A DNA stretch of 64,000 nt from Acidilobus saccharovorans 345-15. Lineage in GTDB: Archaea > Thermoproteota > Thermoprotei_A > Sulfolobales > Acidilobaceae. The stretch lies in NCBI RefSeq assembly GCF_000144915.1, contig NC_014374.1, positions 1 to 64,000 on the forward strand, in the 5' to 3' direction. Both the position numbers and the translations under genes were made by a program. Position 1 is the stretch's first letter, and every line of letters starts with the position of its first letter. Shown piece after piece: positions 5,485 to 28,985 of this stretch. The notes under the pieces were generated by a model. It was given only the letters and a program-made list of their open reading frames with translations, did no database searches and was not told the DNA's origin.

Positions 5485-5773
5485 CAGTTTTGATTATTTT
5501 GTTAATTTACCTTATAAACTACTTAGCCGGGTAATTCCCACGTTTCACATGGGAAGTCACATGCCCGGTGGGAGCGGTGGGAACATCAATTTTACTTAAC
5601 TAAACATCAGAGAAAGTTAAAAATTCATGGGGGCTTCCCATGTCTCACATGGGAAGTCCCCCGGGGGCCGGCGGTAAACTTAAGTATTCCCCTGCAGAGG
5701 ACAACGGTGGGACAGGAGGGCCGGCCCTGGCAAGGTGAGGGCCAAGGCCAGGGCACGGCATCCCATGGCTTGG
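5485..5773 (+). promoter_or_regulatory. Leader of array 2 (full length)
   Basis: It carries the TATA box CTTATAAACT at 5511-5520, then two palindromes of the form TTCCCA(T/C)GT, three bases, ACATGGGAA at 5535-5555 and 5635-5655, exactly 100 bp apart. Between them is a conserved segment with GGTGGGAGCGGTGGGA and TTTTACTTAACTAAAC. After the second palindrome comes AAACTTAAGTATTCC and a GC-rich run up to the first repeat. The outer 18 bp match the end of cas6 and the start of leader 1, so leaders 1 and 2 are inverted copies around the adaptation genes. Confidence 0.85.
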
Positions 5774-7452: not shown

Positions 7453-7458
7453 CCCTCG

Positions 7459-10350
7459 TCACCTCATGTAGTCCACCGCAAGCACCACGCTGTAGAGCCT
7501 GTCCCCGCTGCAGACGGAGCTGCCGTCCCTTGAGGGCAGACAGGAGGACACCGAGGCCAGGTCGCTGACGTGCTTTTTCACCTTGCTCACGTCCGAGTTC
7601 CCCACCTTGTTCCTCTCTACAACTTCTAGCGCCAGCATGGTGTAGACGTCCTTTGCGGAGCCGTTGCCCATGGCCATCTCCATGTAGTCCTTAATGCCGA
7701 AGTAGTCGTGTATAAAGCTAACGCTTAGCCTCTTGCTGCTGATCGCGTCGTACAAGTCCCTCACGGCCTCCAGCAGCTGAGTGTTAAGCCTGCCGGCCTC
7801 GCTCAGCTTAAGCGTCGACACCAGCCACTCCAGGCTCCTTGCGATCCCCCTGCCGGAGTAGATGAAGAGGACGTCCTTCTCCTTAACGTGGTCCTTCTCC
7901 TCAAGGAGCTCGCTGGCGGTGCTTAAGGACAGCGGCAGTGGGTCCTTGTAGTGCGCCGGGAGGATGACGTAGCTCCTGCCATAGTTCGCCAGGGCGTCGA
8001 CCGGCATGTAGCCCTTTCCATCGCCCAGGTACTTAAAGCCGCTCACCGCGCCGCCCGAGAAGCCCCAGTAGGCCTTCCTGGTCTCCTCGACCGCGTCAAG
8101 CGGCACCAGCTCGCCCCTGTACTTGGTCGGCGAGAACGCCAGAAGGTCGTCACCGCCTACGTAGACGGGGCTGGCCCTCCTGTCCGTGAGGATCCTTATG
8201 TCGAGCACCGCCTGCGCTGTCAGGGCCCTTGACAGCGCATATGCATAGGCGGGAGTTATAGGTATCATGTATCTGGTCTCCGTGCCACCCCCGCTTGACA
8301 CGTCAAAAGTGCACGGCGGCTCCTCGCTCGCGGCCTTCTTCACATGGTCCAGGGACCTCTCGTAGCCCTTATCCTCGCTGGCCTCATTGTCCTCGTGGGC
8401 CAGCCGCTCCCTGACCTCTACTATCCTTTTGACCTCTTCAGACAGCTTCTTTTCGTCCTCCAGGCGGATGGCCATGGCAGTCTTTATGTAGTCTTCTATT
8501 GAGAAGCATTTGCCGTCGCCCTTCCTGAGCAGTCCGCTCCAGTAGCCCTTCCCCATGAAGTCCCCATCGGCCTTCAGTACTGCAAAGTAGGCGTCCCCAT
8601 ACTTCCTTATGATCTTCCTGAGCTCCTCCTCGTTCTTTATGTGATTAGCGGCCCTGTCCTTAATGAGGCTATACACGGTCTCGCAGGCTTCCCTGGAGCC
8701 GCCGTAACACTTCTCGTAGAGCTCAGCCAGGTACGGGCCCCTGACGTTCTCATTCCCAACGTAGGGCCCGAGGACCTCGTCCACGTTGAGCATTGCTATT
8801 TCAGAGGTTGACGGGAACCCGCGCCTCACCCCGCTGCCGACCAGGAGATCCATATCTTTGAGGACTTCGATGACCACGCGGCCGTCGTTGAGGGACCTCT
8901 TCAGGGCACAGTATGGGCACAGCCTGTCCTCCTCTTCCTCCCCCTCCTTCACGTCCCTGAGCCTCCTGAACTCAGCACCTGTCCGCCACGAGACGTAGCT
9001 CACGGCCGCTGGGAGCATGCCGCACATGGTGCAGAGGTGGTAGTCCCCCGAGCTGGTCAGGGATCTAACCGTGTCAGCCAGGTCGACGCCGTACATGTAC
9101 TTGACCTTTATCTTAAGCTCCTCGCTGTTAATGCGGTGCAGTAGGTACTCAAAGAACAGGGAGTACTCCACGGAAACGTACTGTCCGCTGCAGCTAAGGC
9201 TCCCCTCGGCAAGCCCTCTGATCGCGTCAGAGTACTTTTTAAACGCTTCACCAACGTCCAGGGCAACTACCCTTGGCCTGACCGGGGGCGTCTCCTTTGC
9301 CTTATCTATGTAACTCTTAAGGGGGCCGTCCCTTAGGAGGCCATCTATACCGGTTCTCTTAAACGCCTCCGACGCCACCTGCTCCCAGGCCTTCTTGAAG
9401 TTATCCCTCAACTGCCTCTCAACGTCATCGCGCTGCTCAGGCAGCAGCAAAACGACCTTGTCCCCCATCATTGACGTCAAGGGCCCGTCCTGAAGGCCAG
9501 CGTACTTCCTCCCGAGCTCAACGATTCTATCTCTCAGACGCTTGTCCTGAACCTTATTGGCGAGCCACGCTATGAAGAAGTGGTTGAGGCTGAGCTCTGG
9601 CCTGAGGACCACGTCGGGGCCGTACCTCTCCACGAAGGGCTCGATGGACCTCCACAGGAGGAGCGACGTGAGCCAGCTGGAGGCCCACAGGTCGCTGGTC
9701 TTCCTGCTAAATGATATGAACTCCTGCACCGAGGGGAAGTCTATCACGGCCACCGATCCATAGAACTGGGGCTTCGTGCCGTCGCACCTAAGTATGTTCA
9801 GCATGGCGGCCGTGGCGGTGGCGTGGTCAAATATCGTGTGCGTCGGGACCCTAGTGTCGGCCACTGGAACCCAGCAGGGCCCGTTCGGGGCGCAGGGGAA
9901 GTGCTCGTACCACAGGAGCGGGGCGAGGTAGTAGGCCACGTGATACTTCAGTCCCCCGGCATTCATGACGAGGCCAGAGAGCTCCCTGGCGTATTCTTTG
10001 ACTTTGTTAGCATCTATGTTGGGAGGTACTTTAATCTTGTACCAAGGCGCAAATAGGTTCTTCTTAACAATCTCTTCTGCCCTTGCCCCCGCCTCCACAT
10101 CCTTCAATAATAATGATATTACCCACCTGTCGAGCGAGGACGCAAGGTGGTCCGCTAAGGCCACCGCCGGTGGGAAGTTTCCCTGGACGGGGACGCCCAT
10201 CATGGAGAGCAGCTCCTTGGCATCATCCTCATGGCCTCCCTTGTCAGCAAGTATCGCCCTGGAAGGGCTCTTGGAGACTATCCACGCCTTCCACGGCGGG
10301 TCGTGGAAGTATGCTATGAGCTTCAGCTCTAACAGGTCACCTGACTGCAC
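7459..10350 (-). CDS. cmr2: Cmr2/Cas10, type III-B HD nuclease and cOA synthase
   Basis: 963 residues. The N-terminal HD domain begins with AYFHDPPWKAW (H16-D17) and has LADHLASSLDRW further on. A zinc site with two CxxC pairs (LCTMCGML, LCPYCALK) lies in the middle. The second Palm domain carries an intact cyclase motif, VYVGGDDLLAF, near residue 731. On target RNA binding, such proteins cut single-stranded DNA and make cyclic oligoadenylates; both sites look functional here. The start is a GTG with a strong GGAGGTGAGG upstream, overlapping cmr6 by 14 bp. Confidence 0.95.
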   Translation of the reverse strand: MQSGDLLELKLIAYFHDPPWKAWIVSKSPSRAILADKGGHEDDAKELLSMMGVPVQGNFPPAVALADHLASSLDRWVISLLLKDVEAGARAEEIVKKNLFAPWYKIKVPPNIDANKVKEYARELSGLVMNAGGLKYHVAYYLAPLLWYEHFPCAPNGPCWVPVADTRVPTHTIFDHATATAAMLNILRCDGTKPQFYGSVAVIDFPSVQEFISFSRKTSDLWASSWLTSLLLWRSIEPFVERYGPDVVLRPELSLNHFFIAWLANKVQDKRLRDRIVELGRKYAGLQDGPLTSMMGDKVVLLLPEQRDDVERQLRDNFKKAWEQVASEAFKRTGIDGLLRDGPLKSYIDKAKETPPVRPRVVALDVGEAFKKYSDAIRGLAEGSLSCSGQYVSVEYSLFFEYLLHRINSEELKIKVKYMYGVDLADTVRSLTSSGDYHLCTMCGMLPAAVSYVSWRTGAEFRRLRDVKEGEEEEDRLCPYCALKRSLNDGRVVIEVLKDMDLLVGSGVRRGFPSTSEIAMLNVDEVLGPYVGNENVRGPYLAELYEKCYGGSREACETVYSLIKDRAANHIKNEEELRKIIRKYGDAYFAVLKADGDFMGKGYWSGLLRKGDGKCFSIEDYIKTAMAIRLEDEKKLSEEVKRIVEVRERLAHEDNEASEDKGYERSLDHVKKAASEEPPCTFDVSSGGGTETRYMIPITPAYAYALSRALTAQAVLDIRILTDRRASPVYVGGDDLLAFSPTKYRGELVPLDAVEETRKAYWGFSGGAVSGFKYLGDGKGYMPVDALANYGRSYVILPAHYKDPLPLSLSTASELLEEKDHVKEKDVLFIYSGRGIARSLEWLVSTLKLSEAGRLNTQLLEAVRDLYDAISSKRLSVSFIHDYFGIKDYMEMAMGNGSAKDVYTMLALEVVERNKVGNSDVSKVKKHVSDLASVSSCLPSRDGSSVCSGDRLYSVVLAVDYMR

Positions 10351-11089
10351 CGCTCCTCACCTCCTCAAGCTCAACCTGAAGGTCGAGCTCACCATATCCC
10401 CTCGTGGTCCTCCTGCCCCAACCGGACACGGAGGAGTAAAAGATCGCCTGGAGGAGGAGCTTGAACGCGTCCTGGCCGCACGGCTCAAGCTCATCCCTCC
10501 TAAAAACAACAAAGCCTTCAAATGTGACGCCAGAGTTGACCGCGACAAACTTAACTGGGACCGGGTTAGCGTTGTACTCGTTGAAGGGCCTCCTCTCGGG
10601 GCTGTAGTGCGGGTTTATTATGTCATATACAAGTAGCCCGCCCTGCGAGGCCACCGGGTAGAAGTCCGTGAACGTCACCTTGCCCTCGGCCTTCCTGCTG
10701 CCAAAGACGCAGTCAGCCATTTTATCATCGCCTGAGACCTCGAGGAAGGCGTCCCTCACTATGCCCTTCGCCTGCGACCCTGGTATGTAGGGGACGTCGA
10801 TTATGAGGTCCCAGGCCAGCGGGACCTCAGTTATGAAGTAGATGGGGCTCCACCCGCCCATGAACTTCCTCTTGGTGGTGAGCTTCAAAGATATGAAGTC
10901 CATGCCCGAGCTGACGATCGATTGCCTGACCTCGTTTACGTACCCCCTCGCGCGGGACAGGTCCCAGCCCTTCACGAGGCCCTCGAGGGACATCGACCTG
11001 GCGTCCTCCCTGGGGCTGCCCTTAAGCATCTCCTGCTGGTACTTCAGGAGCGCACCAAGCAGCCTGTTGCCCCCCTGCTGGGCCGCCAT
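10337..11089 (-). CDS. cmr6: Cmr6, type III-B effector subunit
   Basis: About 250 residues, RAMP family (Cas7-like). Cmr6 caps the 3' end of the Cmr filament together with Cmr1. Visible marks: VPYIPGSQAKGIVRDAFLEV, CVFGSRKAEGKVTFTDFYPV and DIINPHY, followed by a glycine-rich GWGRRTTRGYGEL. I chose the ATG at 11089 because GAGGTGA sits 6 bases upstream and it clears the cmr1 stop; the open frame begins 12 codons earlier. Confidence 0.93.
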   Translation of the reverse strand: MAAQQGGNRLLGALLKYQQEMLKGSPREDARSMSLEGLVKGWDLSRARGYVNEVRQSIVSSGMDFISLKLTTKRKFMGGWSPIYFITEVPLAWDLIIDVPYIPGSQAKGIVRDAFLEVSGDDKMADCVFGSRKAEGKVTFTDFYPVASQGGLLVYDIINPHYSPERRPFNEYNANPVPVKFVAVNSGVTFEGFVVFRRDELEPCGQDAFKLLLQAIFYSSVSGWGRRTTRGYGELDLQVELEEVRSGAVR

Positions 11090-11094
11090 ATGGC

Positions 11095-12315
11095 TCACCT
11101 CGTCACGCGCTTGGCCCCACGACACCTAGCCTCGGCAGCCCTAGCCACGGCATCCACTAATTCGCTTATGACATCTCTGAGTTCCTCACCCCTGATCATG
11201 TCGCCCACCTTGGTCACTTCCCCTGAGCCGCTGCGGTGTTCCAGCATGCTGTAGATCTGCTCGTGGTCACGAAGTGAAAGGAACGGCAGGAAGTACAGCC
11301 TGTAGGCGTTGTTAACCCTCACGGGCGACGCCACCAACATTGACTGCCTGCGGCCGGGCTCCTCGGACTCCTCACTGACCAGGAAGTAGCCGGTGCTCTT
11401 TATCCGCCTCGGCAGCCCCAGGAGCCAGCTGTGGACCTCCGCGCTTGAGAGCCCGCCCCGCCCCATGACAGACCTTAGGTTGACCTTAAGGAAGGCCTCC
11501 TGAAGGACCCTCAGCGCCTCGTAGCTGTCCCTGGCCGTGCAGTTGGGGACCGCCCTGATCACGTCAGGGCCTTCGCCATCGACCAGTGGGGCAAGGGGTA
11601 CAGCGGATTCCTCCCACGAGTTCTCGGAGCTGCAGCCTGCGACCTCCTTAAACCTGTTGTAGTACAGTCTGAACGCCTCAGTTACGTTGCCGTCCTTTAC
11701 GTACGTGCACAGCTTCTCAATGAACTGGGAGCCCCCGGCCGGGCACTCCGAGGGCGCGAACCTGCCGAAGCCCCTGTTTGCGCCCCTGCCTACGCCCACG
11801 AAAGCCAGGGTTATCAGGACCCCTCCAACTACCAGGTCATCATACCCAGGATCCTTTTCAGCCCGCGACCTGTATATGCTGAGATCCAGGCCCCTGAGGT
11901 TCAAGGGCAACAGGTCGCCCTTTGAAAGCCCGCGCCTGTTGCCTAACAGCGTCAGCTTTACCCTGGGAAGCTGATCAAACTGCTTCGCTACATCGCCTGG
12001 CCCGAGCGTGCTCGCCCTAAAGACGTACCTCGAGACCATCCCGGTGGAGCCCAGGAAGCCGCTGACGAACTTCTCAGCCTCGGAGTAGTCGCTGAGGTCT
12101 CTCGCGCAGAACCTGTTGTAAACGGTCCTGAGGAACCACCGGAGCCTCCCATTAATTTCGTCCTCATCCACTTCCTGCGACGTTCTGGTGCTGTGGTCGC
12201 CTCCCCACCAGGGCGTCGTGGGGGTCAGCCTGAGCCTCGCCACCAGCCTCCTCTCATTGAACAGCCCCAGCGCCCTCATCCTGGCTTCCTTAACAAGGGT
12301 CTCGTCGAGGCTCAC
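11095..12315 (-). CDS. cmr1: Cmr1, type III-B effector subunit
   Basis: 406 residues, two RAMP domains as usual for Cmr1. The first domain shows LRLTPTTPWWGGDHS and INGRLRWFLRTVYN; a glycine-rich loop follows at FVGVGRGANRGFGRFAP. Cmr1 binds near the 3' end of the crRNA at the head of the complex. It overlaps cmr5 by 4 bp (ATGA). Confidence 0.93.
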   Translation of the reverse strand: MSLDETLVKEARMRALGLFNERRLVARLRLTPTTPWWGGDHSTRTSQEVDEDEINGRLRWFLRTVYNRFCARDLSDYSEAEKFVSGFLGSTGMVSRYVFRASTLGPGDVAKQFDQLPRVKLTLLGNRRGLSKGDLLPLNLRGLDLSIYRSRAEKDPGYDDLVVGGVLITLAFVGVGRGANRGFGRFAPSECPAGGSQFIEKLCTYVKDGNVTEAFRLYYNRFKEVAGCSSENSWEESAVPLAPLVDGEGPDVIRAVPNCTARDSYEALRVLQEAFLKVNLRSVMGRGGLSSAEVHSWLLGLPRRIKSTGYFLVSEESEEPGRRQSMLVASPVRVNNAYRLYFLPFLSLRDHEQIYSMLEHRSGSGEVTKVGDMIRGEELRDVISELVDAVARAAEARCRGAKRVTR

Positions 12316-12797
12316 AGGGGCATCGCCTCCAGCACCTTCTTGACCTCCAGGAGGTACTCTGAAAGCAGCCTCTCCTTCGCCAGCGCGAGCTCCTTTAAGG
12401 CTATCCCAAGCAGCGACTTGTAAATCTCCTCCTCGTTGCCGCCAACGCTCACGCTCTCGCCTACCCTGCTGAGCGCGTAGAGTATTATTGCGACGTAGCC
12501 CGCGTAGCCTGCGCCCTCGCTCCTCCTCAGCTCGTCACAGATGGCTGCCTTGACGCCATCATCGAGCTTTGCCTTGCCCGTCAGGTAGCTGTAGATGGCG
12601 CTCACTGCGGAGAACCTCTCTACCTTGGATAGGAAGAACGTGAAGGCCGGCTGGAAGCCCAGGCTTATCATGAGCGACGGGAAGTCCACGGCCCTCCTGA
12701 CTATGCCGGGCTTCGAGTTCGAGCTCCCGCCGCCCTGGCAGCCGGCGGCTATCAGCTTGGTGCCCACGTCGGCCGCGAAGCCCACGAAGTCGCTCAA
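12312..12797 (-). CDS. cmr5: Cmr5, small helical subunit
   Basis: 161 residues, predicted all-helical, the size and position of Cmr5 (Cas11). It builds the minor filament between Cas10 and Cmr6 and holds the target RNA strand. Recognition rests on operon position, size and helices such as PAFTFFLSKVERFSAVSAIYSYLTG and YAGYVAIILYALSR rather than a strict motif. It has an N-terminal glycine- and serine-rich loop (GCQGGGSSNSK). Confidence 0.82.
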   Translation of the reverse strand: MSDFVGFAADVGTKLIAAGCQGGGSSNSKPGIVRRAVDFPSLMISLGFQPAFTFFLSKVERFSAVSAIYSYLTGKAKLDDGVKAAICDELRRSEGAGYAGYVAIILYALSRVGESVSVGGNEEEIYKSLLGIALKELALAKERLLSEYLLEVKKVLEAMPL

Positions 12798-12804
12798 GGA
12801 CAGC

Positions 12805-13701
12805 TCACCTCACCGCGCCGCTGACGGCGCCAGTGCCGCTTACGATGAGCAGCCTCACGAGACCCTTGCCCACGGTCTCCTTGCCCCCTATGAAGAGCGA
12901 GGCCCTGTTAAGCTTGTTGCTGAGCTCTGTCATCACGTCTATGTCCCTGCACTCGTCGTTGCCCCCCATGGAGTCCACGCTGCCCCTCATGGAGTCCAGC
13001 ATGGCGCCAACCATAACCGTGCCCTGGGGCACGTACTCCTCAGTCCAGAGGGCCCTCTCCTTGACGGTCTTCGTCTTATCATCGAGGGCGTTCCTTGTGA
13101 CCCTTACCAGGGACGACTCCACAACCTGCAGCCCGACGTCGTCGTCAAAGACGTAGGCCTTGTCCTTTAGCAGGTACCCCAGAGACCTCGTGTCGACGCG
13201 GCCGCCAAGGACGTCGCTTACGTTTACCGTGTAGGCGTAACGGACCTCCCTCAGCCCCACTGTCACTGTGCCGCCGGCGCCCAAGGCCTTAGGTGGGCTG
13301 ACCCCTACGGTTGACAGGATGTCATAAGCCCTGTTAAGGAGGTACTTCGTGGTCACATATATGTAGCCCTCGGAGAGGCTTGGGGCCGGGTAGAGGAACG
13401 GCACCAGGTCGGTGAACACGAGCCTTCCCATAAATTTAGCCCCGCCCTCGTCAATGTCTGGGCCGAAGGCGCACCTCACTAGCTTATTGTCCTTATCGTT
13501 ACCGCCGCCCTTGTCGTTGGGCTTGCCGCTGCTTGGGGGCGTCAGGTGAAACCTCAGGGCGCCCTTGAAGGAGGAGCCTAATATGACTGGGTAGCCCATC
13601 GAGTCCCTCTGAAATGGAAGGTCAACGAAGCCCGGGGACCTGCCGGAGCCCACGTGAACGGGCGTCACGGCGTAGGCGAGGACCAATAACGAGCCGCCCA
13701 C
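12805..13701 (-). CDS. cmr4: Cmr4, type III-B backbone RNase
   Basis: 298 residues, Cas7-like RAMP. Several copies form the filament along the crRNA and cut the target RNA every six bases. The catalytic aspartate is in VDLPFQRD near residue 27, in the thumb-adjacent loop after VTPVHVGSGRSPG, as in known Cmr4. Further marks are VILGSSFKGALRFHL and CAFGPD. It is the first gene of the cmr operon, starting at GTG 13701, with a TATA box about 45 bp upstream. Confidence 0.94.
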   Translation of the reverse strand: MGGSLLVLAYAVTPVHVGSGRSPGFVDLPFQRDSMGYPVILGSSFKGALRFHLTPPSSGKPNDKGGGNDKDNKLVRCAFGPDIDEGGAKFMGRLVFTDLVPFLYPAPSLSEGYIYVTTKYLLNRAYDILSTVGVSPPKALGAGGTVTVGLREVRYAYTVNVSDVLGGRVDTRSLGYLLKDKAYVFDDDVGLQVVESSLVRVTRNALDDKTKTVKERALWTEEYVPQGTVMVGAMLDSMRGSVDSMGGNDECRDIDVMTELSNKLNRASLFIGGKETVGKGLVRLLIVSGTGAVSGAVR

Positions 13702-13874: not shown

Positions 13875-15467
13875 TTACATATCAAGGCTGAGGCGGCCGC
13901 GCGATGCTTCCCCAGGCGGCGAGCGATGGGCCTTATCGAGATTGACGACCTTAAATAGGGACCTCTTAATGATTTCCATAAGTTTCCCACACGGGATCCT
14001 GCAATCGCCGCAGTCCCCCGAGAGGCAGGCCATGGGTGACCCGTCGCCCCTAACCTTTATCTTGACCGCGTTCTCCAGGATGCCAGCGTGGGCCACGAGG
14101 TTTCTCGCCGTGTATTCATTATTTACGGATGAAGAAGTGTGTCCCTTCAGCTCATAAAGGCACACGCCGTCAGACGCGAGCCGCCCCTTCACCTCATCCT
14201 TGCTGGAGTTAATTGCGTTGACAATGTTATCGTGCTCAATTTCTGTGGTAATCGTTATGCCCAGGCCTCTCCTGCTGTAGTTGTCCGCCTCCCTGGCCAG
14301 CTCGTTCAAGTTAAGGCAGCCGCCCTCAGGCTTAATGGTCGTGCCGCCGGCGAGGGCCAGGTACAGCATAGTCTCGAAGTCCTCGTTAAAGTCAGCATAC
14401 CTCGTGACCTCTACGCTGTCGCCGCCCTGGGTAACCTTCGTCAGCGTGAAGTACTCTTCTACAAAAGTGCTTGCCAGGTCGAGGATTGCGCGCTGCAGCT
14501 GCCCCGCGTCGAGGGCCGCGGCGCTGTAACAGGTAGAGCTGGAGGGGCCGCGGCCCAGGCCCTCCAGCTTCTCCAAGGCGTCCTCCAGAAAGTACGGCAT
14601 CAGGAAGAGGGCACCGACGTTTATTGACGCAGCCGCGGCCGTAAGCGAGGAGATGGCGGCCCTTATCGGCTTCCCGTGGAGCCCCACCAGGGCCCTCACC
14701 ACGTCGCGCGGGGCGCAGCGCCTTGGGGAGAGGAGCCTGGAGGTCCTCCTTGTCGGCAGCCTTATGCTGGGCAGCTGCCTCTGAAACGTCACGCTGAGCG
14801 TCAGCTCCGTCCTATCGTCAACATATGGGTCCAACGCCGAGAACCCCAGCGTCACCGGGACCGCCAGCGAGAGGGCCGAGGCGGCCCCTTGGACGGCCCT
14901 CACAGTCATTACCTGGAGCTGGTTGGGGGCGTTAGTCACGTCTGAGACCACGTAAACAGCGTCATAGTCGGCGGCCCTGAGCTCCAGCAGCTTCCTTGAG
15001 ATGTGATAGGCCGCCATGGCCTGGGAGTCATAGGGGCTGACGTCTATCCTCATGGAGCCGCCCCCGCTGAGCCTGAAGGTGCCCCTCAGCGGCACGGCCC
15101 TGAGCTCCAGGTTATCCTCCTTTATGAAATCTCCCAGTAGCCCGCATGAGTCGCTTGAGCTCTCAACCCCCTCCTCTATGTGCCTCCTCTGAAGACTTAA
15201 CAGCTCGTCCACAGCCTTCCAGTAGGGGCCTGAGGCCATGCCAAGTTCAGCTATAAGCGACTCCGGCACGAGACCGAGCACCCTTACCACGGCGTCTGGG
15301 AACATCCTCCTGAGGTAGACGTAGGTGACCGCAGCCGAGGGCACCTTGCCCTTAGACTCCACCCTGCACGAAAACCTGCCCCTGCGATCCTGGGCCAGGT
15401 AGGTGGCCGGCCTCAGGTACTTGACCGAGCCCAGGGGGGCCACTATGAGGGTCAGCGCCTTGCCCAT
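13875..15467 (-). CDS. csx1: Csx1-family CARF-HEPN ribonuclease
   Basis: 530 residues. The N-terminal half is a CARF domain that would bind cyclic tetra-adenylate made by Cas10; VSDVTNAPNQLQV stands where Csx1 proteins have their DxTHG-like signature. The C-terminal HEPN domain holds the catalytic RxxxxH as RNLVAHAG (R455, H460). Four cysteines near 484-496 (ACLSGDCGDCRIPCG) may bind a metal or form disulfides. When activated, such enzymes degrade RNA without sequence specificity. It lies upstream of cmr4 in the same direction and downstream of array 3, which is also read leftward. Confidence 0.9.
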   Translation of the reverse strand: MGKALTLIVAPLGSVKYLRPATYLAQDRRGRFSCRVESKGKVPSAAVTYVYLRRMFPDAVVRVLGLVPESLIAELGMASGPYWKAVDELLSLQRRHIEEGVESSSDSCGLLGDFIKEDNLELRAVPLRGTFRLSGGGSMRIDVSPYDSQAMAAYHISRKLLELRAADYDAVYVVSDVTNAPNQLQVMTVRAVQGAASALSLAVPVTLGFSALDPYVDDRTELTLSVTFQRQLPSIRLPTRRTSRLLSPRRCAPRDVVRALVGLHGKPIRAAISSLTAAAASINVGALFLMPYFLEDALEKLEGLGRGPSSSTCYSAAALDAGQLQRAILDLASTFVEEYFTLTKVTQGGDSVEVTRYADFNEDFETMLYLALAGGTTIKPEGGCLNLNELAREADNYSRRGLGITITTEIEHDNIVNAINSSKDEVKGRLASDGVCLYELKGHTSSSVNNEYTARNLVAHAGILENAVKIKVRGDGSPMACLSGDCGDCRIPCGKLMEIIKRSLFKVVNLDKAHRSPPGEASRGRLSLDM

Positions 15468-15681: not shown

Positions 15682-17312
15682 GTTTCAACACAATCTTATG
15701 GTTTCAGTGTCGAGGATATGTTATAAGCATAGATTTCCTCTTGTTACAACACCATCTCGTGGTTTCGCGGATGTATCACCTAAAGCCGAAGTTTGTGATA
15801 AGGGTTACAACACCATCTCGTGGTTTCTGGATTACTTGCGGCAAACATACTTAGTTTCTACTCTTTGTTACAACACCATCTCGTGGTTTCCCGAGTATGT
15901 TCACGTCCTCTGCCTCAGAAAGGCCGAGCCTTTGTTACAACACCATCTCGTGGTTTCGCAGGCTCTGGAAGGCCATACTGTCCCTACAGAACCCAGACGT
16001 TACAACACCATCTCGTGGTTTCTTTCTATCTGAGGCGTGAGAGCATGGGTGAGAGGGTTTCTCGTTACAACACCATCTCGTGGTTTCGAAGTTTAAGCTA
16101 TTCTTGCTAACACATATCAATCAACTCAAGTTACAACACCATCTCGTGGTTTCAGTTTTTATGAAAAAATCCTTAAAGAACTTGGCCTTTCTTGTTACAA
16201 CACCATCTCGTGGTTTCGCGTTTATTCACGCGACCTGGGGCAGCGCAACAGTGGAAGAGTTACAACACCATCTCGTGGTTTCGCGTCTTTCTTTATAATT
16301 GACCATTCATGAATTTTGTTTTGTTACAACACCATCTCGTGGTTTCGTTGTATACGATAACTACGGGTTCTGGGTCCATCCAACCTTGTTACAACACCAT
16401 CTCGTGGTTTCTACAAACACGTTTGCCTGTTTGAAGAAGCTGGGCCTTATAGGTTACAACACCATCTCGTGGTTTCGTCTCAGAATGAAAGCTCGGAGGG
16501 GACTCCCCAGACTCGTTACAACACCATCTCGTGGTTTCCGAGAGACGTGAGCGAGGTGAGGAATGTGGAGAGCGAGTTGGGTTACAACACCATCTCGTGG
16601 TTTCACGGGGAAAGAAACCATCACCGGAACGGTAGTAGGGGGGAATGAGTTACAACACCATCTCGTGGTTTCGGCTGTTCAGTGCCTGCAGGAGCACCCA
16701 GAGTACTTGGGTTACAACACCATCTCGTGGTTTCGAGGTGCTAAAGAACGGGTTCACATCTGTCGTGGGCCACCCGTTACAACACCATCTCGTGGTTTCA
16801 GGAAGTTCAGTTCGTTGAACTTCTACGACATAATCTTTTGTTACAACACCATCTCGTGGTTTCTAGCCGTTCGGGATTGACGTGGAACGGCTGCGCTCTT
16901 ATGGGGTTACAACACCATCTCGTGGTTTCATTACATCTCAAGATCAGGGCTAACATGGAGCGGTTGGTTACAACACCATCTCGTGGTTTCTATTCATTAT
17001 GGACAAAGCGGTTCAATGTTTACAACAACACCCGTTACAACACCATCTCGTGGTTTCTCGTATGGGTCTTTTTTGGGCTCTACGCATGTTTGGAAAGTTA
17101 CAACACCATCTCGTGGTTTCTCAGCGCTACAAACATGTCCTTCCCAGCTGGCTACATAGGTTACAACACCATCTCGTGGTTTCTAGCTCTTTTTCTTCGC
17201 CTTGCCCCATGGCCCCATGGCCGTTACAACACCATCTCGTGGTTTCTATCAGGAGGTTGCCATCAGCATTTGTTCTGGCTGGGGCTAGGTTACAACACCA
17301 TCTCGTGGTTTC
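15682..17312 (-). CRISPR. CRISPR array 3, leftward, 26 repeats
   Basis: Twenty-five identical 24-nt repeats start at 15743, 15804, 15867, 15934, 15999, 16064, 16130, 16194, 16259, 16323, 16388, 16453, 16515, 16581, 16649, 16711, 16776, 16840, 16906, 16967, 17034, 17097, 17160, 17223 and 17289. On the minus strand they begin GAAACCACGAGATGG and end GTTGTAAC (type C, one base from type B). The oldest repeat, 15682-15705, is decayed and on the minus strand ends GTTGAAAC, like type A. Spacers are 37-44 nt. Two pairs of spacers encode the same short peptides with different codons (see findings). Leader on the right. Confidence 0.98.
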
Positions 17313-17590
17313 CGAGCCATGGGACGCCGTGCCTCGGCCTTAGCCTTCACGTGGCCCGGGGCGGCCCTCCTGTCCCACCACTGTTTTCTGCAGGGGAATA
17401 CTTAAGCCTACTGCCCGCCCTGCGGCCGCTTCCCATGTGAAACATGGGAAGTCGCCATAGGCCTTTAAATTTTCATAATGTTTAGTTAAGTAAAATTGAT
17501 GTTCCCACCGCTCCCACCGGGCAAGGCACTCCCATGTCTCACATGGGAAATACCCGGCTAAGTAGTTTATAAGGTAAAATAACAAAATAA
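17313..17590 (-). promoter_or_regulatory. Leader of array 3 (full length)
   Basis: Homologous to the other leaders in inverse orientation. In transcription direction: TATA box (CCTTATAAAC, about 17563-17572), palindrome at 17529-17549 (TTCCCATGT, three bases, ACATGGGA), conserved TTTTACTTAACTAAAC segment, second palindrome at 17430-17450 (TTCCCATGT, three bases, ACATGGGAA), then TTAAGTATTCC and the GC-rich leader end. The palindromes are 99 bp apart. Confidence 0.85.
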
Positions 17591-18010: not shown

Positions 18011-18889
18011 GTGAAGCGGTTGGCCCTGAGGTTCTCCCACCACATGACCGTCGGCACCTCATTCCTGAGGAACGCCTCCAGGTCAGCGGGCCTTATTATA
18101 ACATACAGATTCAACGATACGCTATGGATGAGGTACGCCTCCAGGTCAGCGGGCCTTAGCAGGGAGCAGGCGGAGCTCCTCGAGAGGTGCTCGAGGCTTG
18201 ATGTTGACGCCGAGGACGAGTGCGAGAGGCTCGCGGGGGCCGGCAGGAGCGACCCGCTGCTTGACAGGCTCAGGTCGTACCTGAGCTCAAGTCCCTACGA
18301 GGCCTCAGCGGAGCTGAACTCGCTTCAGCCCTTCCTGGAGGCCGGCATGGTGCAGAGGGTAGTCCTTTACTACTACTCGGACAGCGGGGCGGCCCACCTG
18401 GTGGCCCTGCTCCTGACCGAGTACCTTAAGCGGGCTGGCGTGGCGGCCGAGGCTGTCCCGGCCGGGGAGGGCGAGAGGAACCTGGCCGCGGGGCTCCTGA
18501 ACATAATGAGAGAGGTCGGCTCGAGGGCCCTCAGGGACCAGGGCGAGGGCTACACTATAATGCTCAACATAACCCCCGGCTTCAAGGCCGAGGCGGCCTA
18601 CTTCACCCTGGGCCTCATGCTGAGGAACATAACGGCCCTGGCCTACTACAGGCACGAGGCCATGAAGTCAACCGTTGGCGTGCCGCTGTTGCACACAACG
18701 GCCCTGAGGGACGCGGTGACCTCCCTGAGGGCGAAGGTGGGGGCGAGGCTGGAGGACCTGGACGCGAACGAGCTCGTTACTGTAATAGCGGCCAGGCTCA
18801 ACTCCGGCAGGCTCTCCCTGGGCCCCGTGGTAAAGGATGACCTTGTGTGGGCCGAGGAGCTCCTGGCCGCCTCGGGAATCACTTCGTGA
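18011..18889 (+). CDS. crn1: Crn1-type ring nuclease (APE2256 family CARF protein) with in-frame insertion
   Basis: 292 residues from a GTG start. It has the signature of the crenarchaeal APE2256/Crn1 family: GTSFLRN near the N-terminus (the family has GTSLLTN, with a catalytic serine) and NITPGFKAEAAY (family lysine in the GxKAE motif). Such CARF enzymes cut cyclic tetra-adenylate and switch off Csx1. Residues from about 29 to 49 (IITYRFNDTLWMRYASRSAGL) are an extra 21-residue segment made by a 63-bp insertion with a duplicated flank; without it the protein reads SFLRNASRSAGLSREQAELL. The insertion keeps the frame, but lies just after the active-site strand, so activity is uncertain. The C-terminal 80 residues look like a small helical or winged-helix domain. 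Confidence 0.82.
   Translation: MKRLALRFSHHMTVGTSFLRNASRSAGLIITYRFNDTLWMRYASRSAGLSREQAELLERCSRLDVDAEDECERLAGAGRSDPLLDRLRSYLSSSPYEASAELNSLQPFLEAGMVQRVVLYYYSDSGAAHLVALLLTEYLKRAGVAAEAVPAGEGERNLAAGLLNIMREVGSRALRDQGEGYTIMLNITPGFKAEAAYFTLGLMLRNITALAYYRHEAMKSTVGVPLLHTTALRDAVTSLRAKVGARLEDLDANELVTVIAARLNSGRLSLGPVVKDDLVWAEELLAASGITS
18072..18158 (+). repeat. 24-bp direct repeat flanking a 39-bp spacer-like insert in crn1
   Basis: Exact 24-bp copies at 18072-18095 and 18135-18158 (each starts ACGCCTCCAGG and ends GGGCCTTA) flank 39 bp (18096-18134) that are AT-rich (TTATAACATACAG...). With the five bases TGAGG and one mismatch to the left, the similarity extends to 30 bp. The unit length of 63 bp equals one repeat plus one spacer of the arrays next door. 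Simple tandem duplication does not explain it because the 39 bp (or at least 33 of them) occur only once. The best reading is a Cas1-Cas2 integration outside an array. Confidence 0.7.
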
Positions 18890-19430: not shown

Positions 19431-19723
19431 TGTTATTTTGTTAATTTACCTTATAAACTACTTAGCCGGGTAATTCCCATGTGAGACATGGGAAGTCACT
19501 TGCCCGGTGGGAGCGGTGGGAACATCAATTTTACTTAACTAAACATTATGAAAATTTAAAGGCCTATGGGGGCTTCCCATGTTCCACGTGGGAAGCTGCC
19601 CTGGAGCCGGCGGTAAACTTAAGTATTCCCGTGCAGAGGACAACGGTGGGACAGAGGGGCAGAGGAAGGGGCAGGCCCCTGGCACGGTAAGCGAACATAA
19701 CCTGTATGGTGTCCCAGAGCTCG
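19431..19723 (+). promoter_or_regulatory. Leader of array 4 (full length)
   Basis: Same layout as leader 2: TATA box (CCTTATAAAC, about 19449-19458), palindromes at 19474-19494 (TTCCCATGT, GAG, ACATGGGAA) and 19574-19594 (TTCCCATGT, TCC, ACGTGGGAA), exactly 100 bp apart, with GGTGGGAGCGGTGGGA and TTTTACTTAACTAAAC between them, then AAACTTAAGTATTCC and the GC-rich end. Leaders 3 and 4 form an inverted pair around crn1. Confidence 0.85.
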
Positions 19724-22481
19724 GAAACCAAGGAATGGTGTTGAAACTCTCTAAATACAATCGGCTTCTGATCCTTGGTAAATGCGAAACCAAGGAATGG
19801 TGTTGAAACCCTCATGTTCATTGGGATATAAATTGACAACTATCCACGGGAAACCAAGGAATGGTGTTGAAACGCTTCATGCCGATAAGGCCGGCTGACC
19901 TAAATTGGTTAAGAAGAAACCAAGGAATGGTGTTGAAACCATAGAAAGATAGTTTCAGGGGTTTAAATTTCCATAGGTTCAGGAAACCAAGGAATGGTGT
20001 TGAAACTGACGTTAGCGTGAACGGGGACAGGATAAGCATAACTATAAGAAACCAAGGAATGGTGTTGAAACACTAGAACTTTATCCATGTCCACAAACCA
20101 TGTTATGGCCGAAACCAAGGAATGGTGTTGAAACCGAGAAACCAATTAACTTAGACGCATACAAAAAGATAATTAACGAGTCAAGAAACCAAGGAATGGT
20201 GTTGAAACTAAGTATCTTCAAAGCCCTTATAAAACTTGCTACCCTCTTGAAGAAACCAAGGAATGGTGTTGAAACACGCAATCATAGCCTTTGATGTTAT
20301 CGCCACAGCTAACTAGAAACCAAGGAATGGTGTTGAAACCCTCCACTGGCCTGTAGGTATAGTTTGCGAAGTGGTATGCGAAACCAAGGAATGGTGTTGA
20401 AACCAAAAGTCCGTGTGGTCTTCCCCCTCAAAATCGAAATATTGCGAAACCAAGGAATGGTGTTGAAACTCTGCACAGTGCACACTGAACCTGTTGGCCT
20501 TTCCGCCAGAAACCAAGGAATGGTGTTGAAACTCTGAACAAACTTGCGGGTTTAACATTAACGAGAAATACGACAGTGAATAATAATATGAAACCAAGGA
20601 ATGGTGTTGAAACCTGCTATTATTTCGCTTGCATAATCTGTTGGCATACCCCTGTGGGAAACCAAGGAATGGTGTTGAAACATCAGCGTAAGCTGTTCAT
20701 ACTTCCTCTGTGCAATTACAGTCGAAACCAAGGAATGGTGTTGAAACACTTTCCACTCATATCTATTCTGAACGTCAACAATATACAGAAACCAAGGAAT
20801 GGTGTTGAAACAGGTTATACTGCCCCCAGCGGCTTCGGCCTCCCCAGCGAAACCAAGGAATGGTGTTGAAACCCATAGGGGAAGCTCCACTTCTTTCACA
20901 AACTCTGCGGAAACCAAGGAATGGTGTTGAAACGCAGCTTTGCCAGTTCTCCCTCAATAGTGTATTCATATGAAACCAAGGAATGGTGTTGAAACTTTAT
21001 GATATTAACGGTAGGCGCCGTGAGGACTATAGAAACCAAGGAATGGTGTTGAAACCTTGCTATCACGTCCCTAACGTTCATGCCCCTGGTCTTGAAACCA
21101 AGGAATGGTGTTGAAACTGGGGCCATTCTCTGCTATCTCATACACTTCTTTCATATGAAACCAAGGAATGGTGTTGAAACACTTGACCTCGTAATGATAT
21201 TCGTGGTCGGCATAGTGGGCTAGAAACCAAGGAATGGTGTTGAAACGCCTTTTCGGCGCTCACTTCCTCTTCCACTGTTGTGCCGCTGTAAAGGAGTCGT
21301 TTACGTCATACACCTTTGCAGTCAGAACTTCCTCTTCCACTGTTGTGCCGCCGAAACCAAGGAATGGTGTTGAAACGTAGGGACCAGTAATGACCGTGCT
21401 TCAGGGAGGAATAGGAGGAAACGAAACCAAGGAATGGTGTTGAAACAGTTCTTCAAACATCGCAAAAATAGCTGAGGAAAACGTGAAACCAAGGAATGGT
21501 GTTGAAACTTTATATAAAACCTGGTGAACTACATGGCTACTCGTAAGCTTCTGAAACCAAGGAATGGTGTTGAAACATCCTAATGACGTCCATTGGCACT
21601 CCAGGGACTTCCTCAAGAAACCAAGGAATGGTGTTGAAACTAGATATTTGGGCTCACGAAAATCTTTCTGTCATGAAGTAGAAACCAAGGAATGGTGTTG
21701 AAACTGCTGGATGCCGGTAGCGGGCCCCTTGGCACTTCTACGGTAGAACAGAAACCAAGGAATGGTGTTGAAACACTACGCCGTGGAGGCAATGTCCTTT
21801 GCTCTCGAGAGAAACCAAGGAATGGTGTTGAAACGTCCTCACCAGGCCCACAAGTTCAATTGGTGTTTTAGCGAGAAACCAAGGAATGGTGTTGAAACAC
21901 TTCCTGCGCGCTCACGCTCTCTCGCCTCGCTTTTCTGTGGAAACCAAGGAATGGTGTTGAAACTCTTATTTCTTCGCCGCCCCAGGCCGCTACTATTTCC
22001 GCGGAAACCAAGGAATGGTGTTGAAACCAGGTGAAACAAAATATAATATGTCAATTGCGTTGTTTAGGAAACTAAGGAATGGTGTTGAAACATGCACCAC
22101 AAGGTAGTATCCTTCGTCGAGATACCTACTCGAAACCAAGGAATGGTGTTGAAACTCACTGTTTCCCTCGCACGGGTTGGGTAGATTCCACGGAAACCAA
22201 GGAATGGTGTTGAAACTGTGGCAAGCTTTCTCCTTTGCTTTATCTCGCTTATTGTCTTTGCGAAACCAAGGAATGGTGTTGAAACATGGCGTTCTGCGCA
22301 AGAATGCCGTGCTGTGGTATGTCATAGGAAACTAAGGAATGGTGTTGAAACACCTCCCTCTTCAATTCTTCTTCCAGACTCTCCCCCACCTGGAAACCAA
22401 GGAATGATGTTGAAACTGGAAAGCGGTTTGTCGAAGAATATGATAAGTATGGCGATGGAAGCCATAGAATGATGTTGAAGT
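19724..22481 (+). CRISPR. CRISPR array 4, rightward, 42 repeats
   Basis: Type A repeats (begin GAAACCAAGG, end GTTGAAAC) start at 19724 and recur every 60-70 bp up to 22393, with a decayed final copy at 22458-22481. Single-base variants occur only towards the old end (22068, 22328: GAAACTAAGG; 22393: ATGATG). Most spacers are 36-46 nt. Exceptions are 50 nt (20135-20184), 57 nt (20533-20589) and a 106-nt interval (21247-21352) with an internal 25-bp duplication, where a repeat would be expected at 21288. The leader is on the left. Confidence 0.98.
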
Positions 22482-24863: not shown

Positions 24864-26322
24864 GCTCATAGCCTTCGTGGTCAAGACCAGGATATCCAGG
24901 CCCCTGCTCATAATAACCCTGATAATGCTGTTCTACGGCGTCATGAGCGGCGCCTACCTCTACGCGAACCACATAGAGCTCCCGCCGAGCGAGGTGGCCC
25001 AGGAGAGGACCATGGCCGTCATATACTCGGCCATAGTCATATTCCTGGCCTCGCTGCAGGGAGGCGTCACTGTGATAAAGTCAGACAGGGACTACCTCTT
25101 CACCCTGCCAATAAGCAGGGGGAGCCTCGCGCTCTCGCTCTACATAGGGCAGATGGTGCTCAGCGGCCTGCTGGCCATCGCCTGGCTCGGCTGGTACTTC
25201 CCGTTCATAGACGTGCCCCTGGGGTACGCTGTAGTCGACATGGTGCTCTTCGTGCTCCTGCTGACGTCGCTGACAGCTTCAATAGCGGAGCTGCAGGCCA
25301 AGAGGAGGGTCGCCGTGGCCGCTGCCCTGGCGGCCTGGTCGATATCAGCCCTGTTCAGGAACCCCGTCAGCCCCTCCGGGGTCTTCGACGGCTACTACCT
25401 GGCGGGCACGGCCACGCTAGCCATACTCTCCCTGGGCCTCACCTCCTACGTGGCCACGAGGCTCGGCAGGGCCCCGCTGCTCTACGGCTACTCCTCGGTG
25501 GTCAGCGAGGGCAGGGGGCAGGTGGCCTCGAGCGCGCTCTCCTTCGCGGGCGTCAGGGGGCTCAGGGCCGAGCTCAGGATGAAGCTCAACACTCTTACCA
25601 TAACTGGAAGGGTCGGGGGCTTCGGCGCCGGGGGCTCCAGGTACTTCACCCGCACCGTGAGCGTGAGGAAGTTCATGGGCTACATGTCGCTCGCCGCCGC
25701 GGCGTACCTGGCGGTCGGCGTGGCCCTAATGGCCACGGGGCTCGTCCCCCAGAGGCTGACCCCCCAGGGCCCTGGGAACGGGGTGCTCTTCGGGCTCCTC
25801 TTCGTGCCTGCCATCGCCGTTGAGGCCTTCTTCATAGGCTCCAGCGCCTCCCAGGTGGGCAACGAGAGGCCCTGGCTTGCCTTCACCGCCGCGGACCCCG
25901 GCGCCTACATGTGGCTGGGCGCCCTCTCCTGGTCCCTCGTGGTGCTCCTCGCCTCCCTCCCCTTCGCCGCCGCCTACCTTACCCTCTGGCTCATGGGCCT
26001 CAGGGAGGCGATTAACATGGTGCCGCAGCTGCTCCTGGTGGGCCCCGCCTTCTCCCTGCTTTCATACGCTGCCTCCGCCTACATGGCGGTGTCGCCGCAG
26101 GTGAGGAGCGAGGGGTTCATGCCGGGCCAGGTCAGGGCCAGGGGGCTGGTGATAACCTTTATAATTATAGTGCCGTTCGCCCTCATCTCAGCTGCGATGG
26201 CGTCGCTTAGCGTCAGCGTCTACAGCGGCCTCGCCTCGCTGCTTGTGGCGGCCCCCTTCATGGCCCTCAGGGGCTTCTGGAGGTCGGCCTCAAGGAGGAT
26301 AGTTGAGGCCGGCTACGTGTGA
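24850..26322 (+). CDS. ABC-2 type permease-like membrane protein
   Basis: 490 residues from a GTG start overlapping the ATPase gene. There are about 12 hydrophobic segments, for example [40 protein letters not shown] and [20 protein letters not shown]. The middle (residues 240-280) is a soluble loop with [14 protein letters not shown] earlier at about 77-91, a phrase seen in membrane components of ABC-2 exporters. The transported compound is unknown. Its end overlaps the convergent lhr gene by 10 bp. Confidence 0.8.
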
Positions 26323-28985
26323 GCCTCCTCGCCCTGGGCCTGCTGGACGCCCTCCTCCAGGACCTTGCCCTTTGACCTCAGGTACTCCATTATCCTGTCG
26401 TGGAGGTACGCCATTATCCTCTGCTTGTCCTCCATGAGCACCACGTCGCTGTACTCCTTTATGAACAGGTTGTGCGCGAAGGGCGACGGGTATGGCAGCG
26501 GCCCCCTTACGGTGACCTTGACCTCGCCGCCCTCTATCCACCTGAGGACCCTCCCCGCGTCCTGTATGTCCATGTAGTCCTCAAGTATCTCCCTGTAGGT
26601 CTCCCTTATGACTGGGCTGCCCGGCATCTCCTCAAGCATGACGTCGAGCAGCTTCTGCGCCGAGAGCTGCATCCTCTCCGGGCTCCTCTCGTGCCCCCTG
26701 TACCTCCTCAGTATCATGAAGCTCCTCTGGGCCACGTGCCTGAACCTCCTCCTCATCATCTCAGTCCTCACCACGGCGCCCTCGAGGAGCTGCCTGAGGT
26801 TGTCGCTCCTCACGGAGCTCAGCAGGTACCTTATGAGGCCCTCGTCCGGCTCCCTGCCCTCGTAGGTGAGCATGAAGGCGTTGTCCGTGACCGAGACCTT
26901 GACGGGCACGTTGAGCCTGTCGGAAAGCACCGCGCCGTAGGCCCTGGAGAGTGCGTCGTTGGTCCTCCTGCCGAAGAGGGTGTGGAAGGCTATGCTCCAC
27001 TCGCCCTCGTCGCCCTGGAAGTACTCTATGAGTATGTTCCTCCTGCCCGGCACGACGCCGGTGTAGGCCAGCTGCTCCCACACGTACTGAATTACCTCCT
27101 CGGCGGCGTGGGGCTCCAGCCTGTACTCCTCCACGAGCATCCTCCTGGCCTCGTCTAACTTGCCCTGGGCTATGAGCTCCCCAACCCTCTCCCTGAACTC
27201 CCCGACCAGGAGGGCGCTGTCGAAGGCCAGGGGCAGCATCTCGCTGAACCAGCTCGGCACCGTGGGCCTCTCGTTCTCGGCGGGCTCCACGTAAACCTTC
27301 ATGCCGTCAGCCCTGAGGAACCTGTAGGTCTTGCCCCCGAGGACGAATATGTCGCCGGGCTCAAGTATCTCGACGAACTCCTCCTCCAGGCTGCCTATGC
27401 TCTTGCCCTTAGATATGACCTTTATCTTGGCCTCGTCCGGTATCGTGCCCGCGTTGAGCTGGTATATCATCCTGGCGCTCCTCTTCCTGCCGAACTCCCC
27501 CAGGTCCTCGTCAAGCCTTATCTTTGAGTAGACCCCCTCGTCCTCGAGCCCCTGGCTCTTGCCGCCGAGGAAGCGGAGGACGCTCATGTAGTCCTCCCAG
27601 CTGAGCGCGTGGAACGGGTAGGCCCTCCTTATCACCCTGAAGGCCTCCTCCACCTTCCACGGCCTCTCTATTGACATGCCAACTATGTGCTGGGCCAGCA
27701 CGTCAAGCGGGTTCCTTGGTATCCTCACGTTGTCTATCTTCCTCTCCATGGCTGCCTTGGCCAGCACAGTGCACTCTATCAGGTCGTCCCTGTTAACAGC
27801 CACCATGACGCCCCTGCTCACCTGGCTCACGTGGTGCCCAGCCCTGCCAACCCTCTGGAGGAGCCTGCTCACGCTCTTCGGGCTGCTCAGGAGGACCACG
27901 AGGTCTATGTAGCCTATGTCTATGCCGAGCTCTAGGCTGGTGCTCGACACCACCAGCTTGAGCTCGCCCCTCTTCAGCCTCTCCTCTACGTCGAGCCTCA
28001 CCTCCCTCGAGAGGCTGCTGTGGTGGGCCTCTATCTCATCCATGTCAACGTAGCCCTTGGAGGACATGAGCTTCTTGAGCTTGAACACCACCCTCTCCGT
28101 GGCGCTCCTGGTGTTTGTGAAGACCAGCGTGGTCCTGGCGGTCCTCGAGAGCTCGGCCACGGTGTTGTATATTTCCTCGTTTATCTTTTCCGGGTCGCCG
28201 TGTATGAGGTCCACCTTAGGCGTTATCACCCTTATGTCGAAGGGCTTGGCGAACCTGGCGTCCACTATCTCCACTGGCCTCGGCGTCCCATCGTCGTAGT
28301 AGCCGCCCAGGAACCTGGCGACCTCCTCGAGGGGCGATATGGTTGCCGAGAGGCCTACCCTCTGGAGCCCCCTTCCCTGGGCCTCGCTGACCAGCTCCTC
28401 GAGCCTCTCCAGCGTCAGGGCGAGGTGCGAGCCCCTCTTGCTGGAGGCGAGCTCGTGTATCTCGTCAACTATGACCCACCTGGCGGTCGAGAGCCTCTCC
28501 CTGAACTTGGGGGCCACGAGGCTTATGGCGAGGCTCTCGGGCGTCGTTATAAGTATGTGAGGGGGCCTCCTCAGCATCTTTGCCTTCTCGTTGGCCGGCG
28601 TGTCGCTAGTCCTGGTGGCCACCCTGACCTCAGGGGGCTGGAAGCCCATGGACTTTGCCTTCTCGTATATCTCGCCCAGCGGCTGGACCAGGTTCCTGTA
28701 CATGTCGTTGTCCAGGGCCCTGAGGGGGCTGACGTAGACCGCGTATATCTTGTCCTCCAGCTCCCCCCTCTCCCCCATGGCGAGGAGGTCGTCGAGTATT
28801 GCAAGGAAGGCCGCGAGCGTCTTGCCCGTCCCAGTGGGGCTCGATATCAGCACGCTCCTCCCCTGCTTTATTAGCGGTATGGCCTCCCTCTGCGGGTCGG
28901 TGAAGGAGCCGTACTTCTCCCTGAACCAGGCGGCCACGTAGGGCCTCAGCAGCGAGAGTACTTCCTCGTCGTCCTGCAACGCCAC
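26313..28985 (-). CDS. lhr: Lhr-type superfamily 2 DNA helicase
   Basis: 890 residues, the length of archaeal Lhr core proteins. Motif I is SSPTGTGKT (K55), motif II DEIHELASSKRGSHLALTLERL, motif III SATISPL, motif VI QRVGRAGHH. After the RecA domains come the winged helix and the Lhr-specific C-terminal core. Archaeal Lhr is a 3'-5' helicase that unwinds forks and RNA-DNA hybrids, probably in repair of stalled replication. The start is a GTG. It is convergent with the ABC permease and stands alone. Confidence 0.93.
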   Translation of the reverse strand: MALQDDEEVLSLLRPYVAAWFREKYGSFTDPQREAIPLIKQGRSVLISSPTGTGKTLAAFLAILDDLLAMGERGELEDKIYAVYVSPLRALDNDMYRNLVQPLGEIYEKAKSMGFQPPEVRVATRTSDTPANEKAKMLRRPPHILITTPESLAISLVAPKFRERLSTARWVIVDEIHELASSKRGSHLALTLERLEELVSEAQGRGLQRVGLSATISPLEEVARFLGGYYDDGTPRPVEIVDARFAKPFDIRVITPKVDLIHGDPEKINEEIYNTVAELSRTARTTLVFTNTRSATERVVFKLKKLMSSKGYVDMDEIEAHHSSLSREVRLDVEERLKRGELKLVVSSTSLELGIDIGYIDLVVLLSSPKSVSRLLQRVGRAGHHVSQVSRGVMVAVNRDDLIECTVLAKAAMERKIDNVRIPRNPLDVLAQHIVGMSIERPWKVEEAFRVIRRAYPFHALSWEDYMSVLRFLGGKSQGLEDEGVYSKIRLDEDLGEFGRKRSARMIYQLNAGTIPDEAKIKVISKGKSIGSLEEEFVEILEPGDIFVLGGKTYRFLRADGMKVYVEPAENERPTVPSWFSEMLPLAFDSALLVGEFRERVGELIAQGKLDEARRMLVEEYRLEPHAAEEVIQYVWEQLAYTGVVPGRRNILIEYFQGDEGEWSIAFHTLFGRRTNDALSRAYGAVLSDRLNVPVKVSVTDNAFMLTYEGREPDEGLIRYLLSSVRSDNLRQLLEGAVVRTEMMRRRFRHVAQRSFMILRRYRGHERSPERMQLSAQKLLDVMLEEMPGSPVIRETYREILEDYMDIQDAGRVLRWIEGGEVKVTVRGPLPYPSPFAHNLFIKEYSDVVLMEDKQRIMAYLHDRIMEYLRSKGKVLEEGVQQAQGEEAHT

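Follow-up and report, generated by a model that had tools for sequence, protein, structure and literature searches.

Candidate off-target Cas1-Cas2 integrations in a crn1 ring-nuclease gene and a CRISPR spacer of Acidilobus saccharovorans

The crn1-like ring-nuclease gene of Acidilobus saccharovorans contains a short AT-rich stretch enclosed by two exact copies of a 24-bp sequence, which raises the question of how this 63-bp unit arose and whether the strain's own spacer acquisition machinery made it. The earlier note on this DNA had put forward integration by Cas1-Cas2. Off-target Cas1-Cas2 integration, at a probability of about 0.5, explains the crn1 unit better than any other single reading, the odds given here for this and all other readings being a matter of judgement and not a computed posterior. 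Coordinates refer to the window, which is the whole 64,000-nucleotide stretch of DNA that was analysed, except where they are given as genome positions.

The repeat-flanked unit in crn1

The gene (18011-18889, forward strand) has a GTG start and encodes 292 amino acids. Its earlier assignment to the Crn1 ring nucleases holds, with a match to the family profile PF09651 (E 1.3e-22), a further match to the PADLOC profile CARF7 (E 8.8e-57), the CARF fold and the GTS of motif I. Direct reading and a repeat search both place the exact copies of the 24-bp direct repeat at 18072-18095 and 18135-18158 on the forward strand, with a period of 63 bp and a gap of 39 bp (18096-18134, forward strand) between them. 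The unit keeps the reading frame of the 292-residue ORF and adds 21 residues to its product. Among the genuine spacers of the strain, 41 of 188 orientations would stay in frame and open at this site, a count that is of little help to either side. The earlier description of the 39 bp as AT-rich is borne out by a GC content of 36%, against 65% in the rest of crn1 (GC3 87%); none of the 777 other 39-nt windows in the gene is as AT-rich, and genome-wide the proportion is 2.8%. Compared with the spacers, which have a mean GC of 0.47 (sd 0.09), the core stands at 0.36, and 16% of spacers are equally low or lower.

The repeat runs further than the earlier note had it. The six bases that precede the two copies agree at five positions (TGAGGA at 18066-18071 on the forward strand, matching TGAGGT at 18129-18134), so that a 30-bp repeat with one mismatch (A18071 / T18134; 18066-18095 and 18129-18158) around a 33-bp insert (18096-18128) is an equally valid call. 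An end-match of this type is expected by chance in 0.3% (TGAGG) to 0.8% (five of six bases) of genome hexamers, and it is found at 0 of 188 spacer ends. The longer extent of the repeat speaks against a duplicated stretch of exactly 24 bp.

Two simpler origins were rejected. A plain 63-bp tandem duplication does not account for the unit, as its first 33 nt and the 33 before them are identical at just 11 positions, and the best score for an archaeal bulge-helix-bulge intron (6/8) was equalled or beaten by 154 of 200 shuffles. The RNA fold at the unit, which was checked alongside the intron reading, was unremarkable (z -0.25).

The protein model used was built from three sequences (mean pLDDT 75.7), the single-sequence fold being poor (pLDDT 44), and it resembles SSO1393 (3qyf; Z 18.2, rmsd 3.2, 198 aligned) and Sis0811 (Z 18.1, rmsd 3.0, 194 aligned). 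Residues 33-44 have pLDDT below 50 in this model and lie between the GTS helix (17-25) and the following helix (51-61), the insert being modelled as a low-confidence loop that leads from the one to the other. The Crn1 ring nucleases Sso1393 (3qyf), Sis0811 (7pq2) and Sso2081 (7ygh) share the CARF fold and the GTS of motif I with the protein described here; unlike it, 3qyf and 7pq2 are short after motif I in the family-profile alignment, Sso2081 having been compared by fold only. According to the available part of one report, Ser11, in the GTS motif, is important in Sso2081 and not clearly so in its orthologue Sis0455 (PMC10018336). Altered ring-nuclease activity through the added loop is conceivable.

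CRISPR-Cas setting and a second unit nested in a spacer

The adaptation genes cas4 (2771-3319; PF01930 E 1.6e-11), cas2 (3312-3596; PF09827 E 2.9e-13), cas1 (3593-4582; PF01867 E 1.3e-59 and PADLOC E 1.6e-63) and csa1/cas4a (4579-5472; PADLOC Cas4a E 1.4e-47), all on the reverse strand, occupy 2771-5472, about 13 kb from the crn1 unit, in agreement with what had been noted before from the sequence. The reverse strand also carries the type III-B effector genes cmr3, cas10, cmr6, cmr1, cmr5 and cmr4 (6580-13701; PADLOC) and a csx1-like CARF-HEPN gene (13875-15467; PADLOC Csx1/Csm6 E 3.1e-72). Elsewhere in the window, a large helicase-like ORF at 26313-28985 has DpdJ as its best PADLOC match (E 1.1e-152) and is BrxHI-like as well.

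One CRISPR array on the forward strand (19724-22416) is built on the 24-nt repeat GAAACCAAGGAATGGTGTTGAAAC, with 24 and 17 repeats flanking the nested unit described below, and another on the reverse strand (15682-17312) has 26 copies of a second 24-nt repeat and its leader on the right. A further array outside the window (genome 1415505-1415918, in L094) has a different 24-nt repeat, GAATCCGCTCAATGGAATTGAAAG. The repeats of all three array families are thus 24 nt long, the length to which the earlier note had likened the crn1 repeat. The comparison of the 39-bp core with spacers also stands: the first two families have 94 spacers, 91 of them 36-46 nt long and 10 of them 39 nt, within an overall range of 36-57 nt. 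The spacers at 20111-20184 and 20509-20589, at 50 and 57 nt, exceed the 36-46 range and contain no internal repeat of at least 13 bp. The leaders at 1051-1200, 5624-5773, 17313-17462 and 19574-19723 are strongly alike by eye and have CTTAAGTATT in common. Leader ends in the genome are CTCG in four of five cases and CTTGG in one, each before G.

A second unit of the same build as that in crn1, which the earlier note had missed, lies 3.1 kb from it, inside a spacer of the forward-strand array. Comparison of the leaders drew attention to an interval of 106 nt (21247-21352, forward strand) between the repeats at 21223-21246 and 21353-21376, laid out as 15 nt, a 25-bp direct repeat (21262-21286), 40 nt with a GC content of 0.42 (21287-21326), the second copy of the 25-bp repeat (21327-21351) and 1 nt, the nested features all being on the forward strand. 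The interval corresponds to a 41-nt spacer with a 65-bp nested insertion, since 106 - 65 leaves 41 nt, which is a normal length. The 25 bp may be 24 plus one base that agrees by chance, and with a duplication of 24 bp the insert is 41 nt and includes A21327. A duplication of repeat length (25 bp), an insert of spacer length (40-41 nt) and a normal spacer left over are all found together here, and the interval is, as judged from its layout, what integration into a spacer would leave. Among repeats of at least 13 bp in the arrays of the first two families, CRISPR repeats aside, there was no second nested case. No spacer-in-a-spacer case was found in the literature searched, in so far as its text was available, which does not establish the absence of such a case from print.

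Published work on related enzymes gives an indication of the sites that Cas1 favours. According to the available text of PMC5815122, integration by S. solfataricus Cas1-Cas2 in vitro occurs throughout plasmids, with G or C favoured at +1 and C at -2, and disintegration rates given for Sulfolobus Cas1 are, by the base at +1, 0.06 per min for G, 0.013 for C, 0.0058 for A and 0.0009 for T (from the accessible part of PMC4574026). These parts of the two reports describe a type I-A machinery with little site specificity in vitro (PMC4574026, PMC5815122), which is a likeness to the present case, and the base rule is a preference and not a defining rule. The S. solfataricus preference fits one register of the array unit and four of the five leaders in A. 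saccharovorans, the remaining leader having G at -2, and the crn1 junctions do not fit it. Non-specific integration by Cas1 of S. islandicus was reduced in vitro by Csa3a, which has been proposed to prevent it outside arrays, as stated in the portion of PMC9456107 that was available.

The fitting register of the array unit, with a 24-bp duplication at 21263-21286, has the junctions CTCA/CTTC and TTCG/GCGG, the second of which contains the TCG/G common to four of the five leader-repeat junctions of the genome. The alternative register (GCTC/ACTT and TCGG/CGGC) is a poorer fit. As 15% of positions in the same stretch score as well as the better register or higher, the junction test alone is weak for the array unit. 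The occurrence of a second unit of the same build, in a spacer, makes stray Cas1-Cas2 integration in this strain likely, and the evidence for a Cas1-Cas2 origin is stronger for the nested array unit than for the crn1 unit.

We infer Cas1-Cas2 as the maker of either unit, an invader as the origin of the 39 bp, and an ancestor that lacked the crn1 unit. A 39-bp prespacer, probably derived from an AT-rich virus or plasmid, would have been joined by the strain's own Cas1-Cas2, possibly with Cas4, to both strands of crn1 at points 24 bp from each other. Gap filling would have duplicated those 24 bp, and the resulting 63-bp unit would have been fixed in frame.

Alternative origins of the crn1 unit

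The main case for Cas1 consists of the lengths 24 and 39, the base composition and the second unit in the genome, and the main case against it at crn1 consists of the junction bases and the TGAGG match. The integration proposed in the earlier note stands in its 24/39 architecture, composition and nearby adaptation genes, to which the second unit is added, and is weakened by the extension of the repeat to 30 bp and by the disfavoured bases at the junctions. These junctions, AGGA/ACGC and CTGC/TAAG, have A and T at +1 and G and G at -2, which are the two least-favoured bases at +1 with no C at -2, according to a preference measured on the Cas1 of another species. By the published rates, 8% of positions in crn1 score equally low or lower. 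Neither flank of the unit showed any likeness to the leaders by eye.

The same two features lend some weight to the chief rival, an unlikely but not negligible one, which is generic repair without any part for Cas1-Cas2. At a staggered break or a template switch, a short piece of AT-rich DNA would have served as a 33-bp filler, with 30 bp duplicated around it and one of these bases mutated since. Such an origin accommodates the imperfect 30-bp repeat and junction bases that are poor for Cas1, and a length of 33 bp lies outside the local spacer range of 36-57 nt. It also leaves the equality of 24 and 39 with the CRISPR lengths to accident, and no other such event was found outside the arrays in 1.5 Mb. 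The genome, a single contig of 1,496,453 bp with 99.96% completeness, was scanned whole, in stretches, for exact repeats of at least 16 bp within 200 bp of each other. With arrays and tandem repeats excluded, the crn1 unit is the only exact repeat of at least 20 bp with a gap of 36-46 bp, and scans of the 1.5-Mb genome gave no third unit beside those in crn1 and the array spacer.

A looser scan (21 of 24 positions matching, period 40-160) returned 17 rows, including the crn1 unit and several from one tandem array. The one other row that was followed further, a near-24-bp repeat at genome 292720, was rejected as a second event, the gene aligning over its full length with its counterpart in G003, a genome of the same genus, with identical repeat spacing and no indel. 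A 20-bp exact repeat with a period of 85 lies within one gene at genome 292724/292809 (L038 8724-8743 and 8809-8828) and at 447359/447444 in G003 (L151 7359 and 7444); the repeats of the two genomes differ at two positions, each altered in the first and the second copy alike, as though the two co-evolved.

Genomes of the same genus served as controls, cas1 being present in none of the three (one of which is only 84% complete). The repeat scan of G003 covered 1.2 of 1.54 Mb (78%), with 16-mers of at least four copies left out, and gave 26 rows, 22 of them with a period divisible by three. None of the 26 is at least 20 bp long with a gap of 36-46 bp; three rows of 16-19 bp have such a gap, and in one of these the gap has 42% GC. 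This last repeat (G003 100204; L134 204-281) is 19 bp long with a gap of 40 bp, in a genome without cas1, and no clear gene is seen there by eye. Alignment of the source genome with G003 covered about 1.0 Mb at 76.7% identity, and none of the 149 indels of at least 12 bp has a repeat of at least 10 bp around a unique gap, which again speaks against generic repair, with the reservation that 115 of the indels are shorter than 30 bp, only 34 are long enough, and old repeats would have decayed, weakening this control.

The missing source of the filler is a further point against repair. Comparison of the core with nearby DNA and with known local spacers gave nothing better than shuffles, and its best match in its own genome is 13 nt (E 0.48), so that both origins were rejected. 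The 39 bp have no second place within the 64-kb window, and the 33-bp core, at up to three mismatches, has no other place in 214 genomes of the order or 398 of the phylum, its own included. Searches in phages, in plasmids and by patterns in IMG/VR, which took up the comparison with viral and plasmid sequences suggested earlier, found no source for the 39-bp core. By blastn it matched 46 phage records (45 from Vibrio and 1 from Lactobacillus) and one plasmid, with a best E of 0.3, as expected by chance. Viral matches of 17-18 nt (L026, L106-L108) were set aside as chance as well, just 22-24 of 39 positions agreeing; L026 itself resembles a gut phage by eye. About 64 genuine spacers from two array stretches gave no match at E 0.1 in the same phage collection, and the nested unit gave none in phages, nor in IMG/VR by two exact patterns. 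Because genuine spacers and the nested unit are also unmatched, the missing source for the core says little. One spacer of A. saccharovorans has been reported, in the part of PMC3285040 available, to have its match in an S. islandicus insertion sequence, from which it follows that spacer sources can lie elsewhere.

It is improbable that the unit is the scar of a mobile element (an insertion sequence, a MITE or an integrated virus) that made a duplication of 24-30 bp before its interior was lost. Such a scar could leave foreign-looking, AT-rich DNA flanked by direct repeats, and against this neither the core nor the repeat has another copy in the genome.

About as improbable, or slightly more so, is a native loop of variable length in this Crn1 lineage, with the repeat formed by slow local evolution and not by a single insertion. 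The spacing from GTS to Cys, taken by eye, ranges from 23 to 43 residues in five homologues and is 46 here (25 without the unit), and the stretch behind the GTS motif in which the loop lies varies much in length. The nearest homologue, from Candidatus Hestiella (L104; L003 is this same stretch of contig), is 35-40% identical depending on the method. Its NAS aligns with copy 1 and its YESKGGLS with copy 2, so that Y42 and GLS of copy 2 have counterparts in the nearest relative, and since the two motifs can be aligned with either copy the ancestral state is not readable from it. The earlier note would have given up an insertion if relatives all carried the 21 residues as a normal loop; by eye, neither the Candidatus Hestiella protein nor any other printed homologue has them (L020, L025 and L103 left out of this comparison). 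At 35-40% identity for the nearest, no empty crn1 site was found among the relatives. Searches of the three other genomes in the genus, of which one is 84% complete, gave no match to the protein, and a viral-contig search with it gave no relative. A native loop is further at odds with 24 bp that are exact, silent sites included, next to AT-rich codons, and with the poor match (11/33) that already speaks against plain tandem duplication.

A sequencing or assembly artefact is very improbable, the unit being known from a single genome, but one that is a single contig of 99.96% completeness, and being in frame and open, as just 41 of 188 spacer orientations would be.

Possible natural marks of spacer acquisition in host genes

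Off-target integration by Cas1-Cas2, preferred here for the crn1 unit, is already known from test tubes, and it is also known from engineered E. coli. The joint reading, in which off-target integration took place naturally at two sites within 3.3 kb, once nested in a spacer and once in frame in a gene for the type III off-switch as a 21-residue loop beside the catalytic motif, is tentative and falls somewhat short of an even chance. Non-canonical integration by E. coli Cas1-Cas2 placed spacers outside the proper array site (Nivala, Shipman and Church 2018, as cited in the available part of PMC9456107), and the units described here may be likened to it. They differ from off-target integration in E. 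coli in being natural and fixed, in an archaeal coding gene in frame and in a spacer, and in not having been observed as they happened. The E. coli experiment was reportedly carried out in a type I-E bacterium. Another likeness is to the system of PMC8047081, in which, as far as the accessible text describes it, a new spacer is added away from the leader; the new spacer-repeat units of that system lie within the array, whereas 24-25 bp of a spacer or gene, instead of the repeat, are duplicated in A. saccharovorans.

A pair of integration marks that is natural and fixed, with one mark lying in frame within a CRISPR regulator, would be a new form of a process known from experiments. A unit nested in a spacer has an empty-site logic built in, the spacer having a normal length of 41 nt without the unit, needs no relative for comparison and could be looked for across all CRISPR arrays. 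If the joint reading is true, Cas1-Cas2 would supply host proteins with small insertions in frame. Should the crn1 unit share its origin with the array unit, spacer acquisition can also rewrite proteins of the host, in this case one that should limit its own immune signal.
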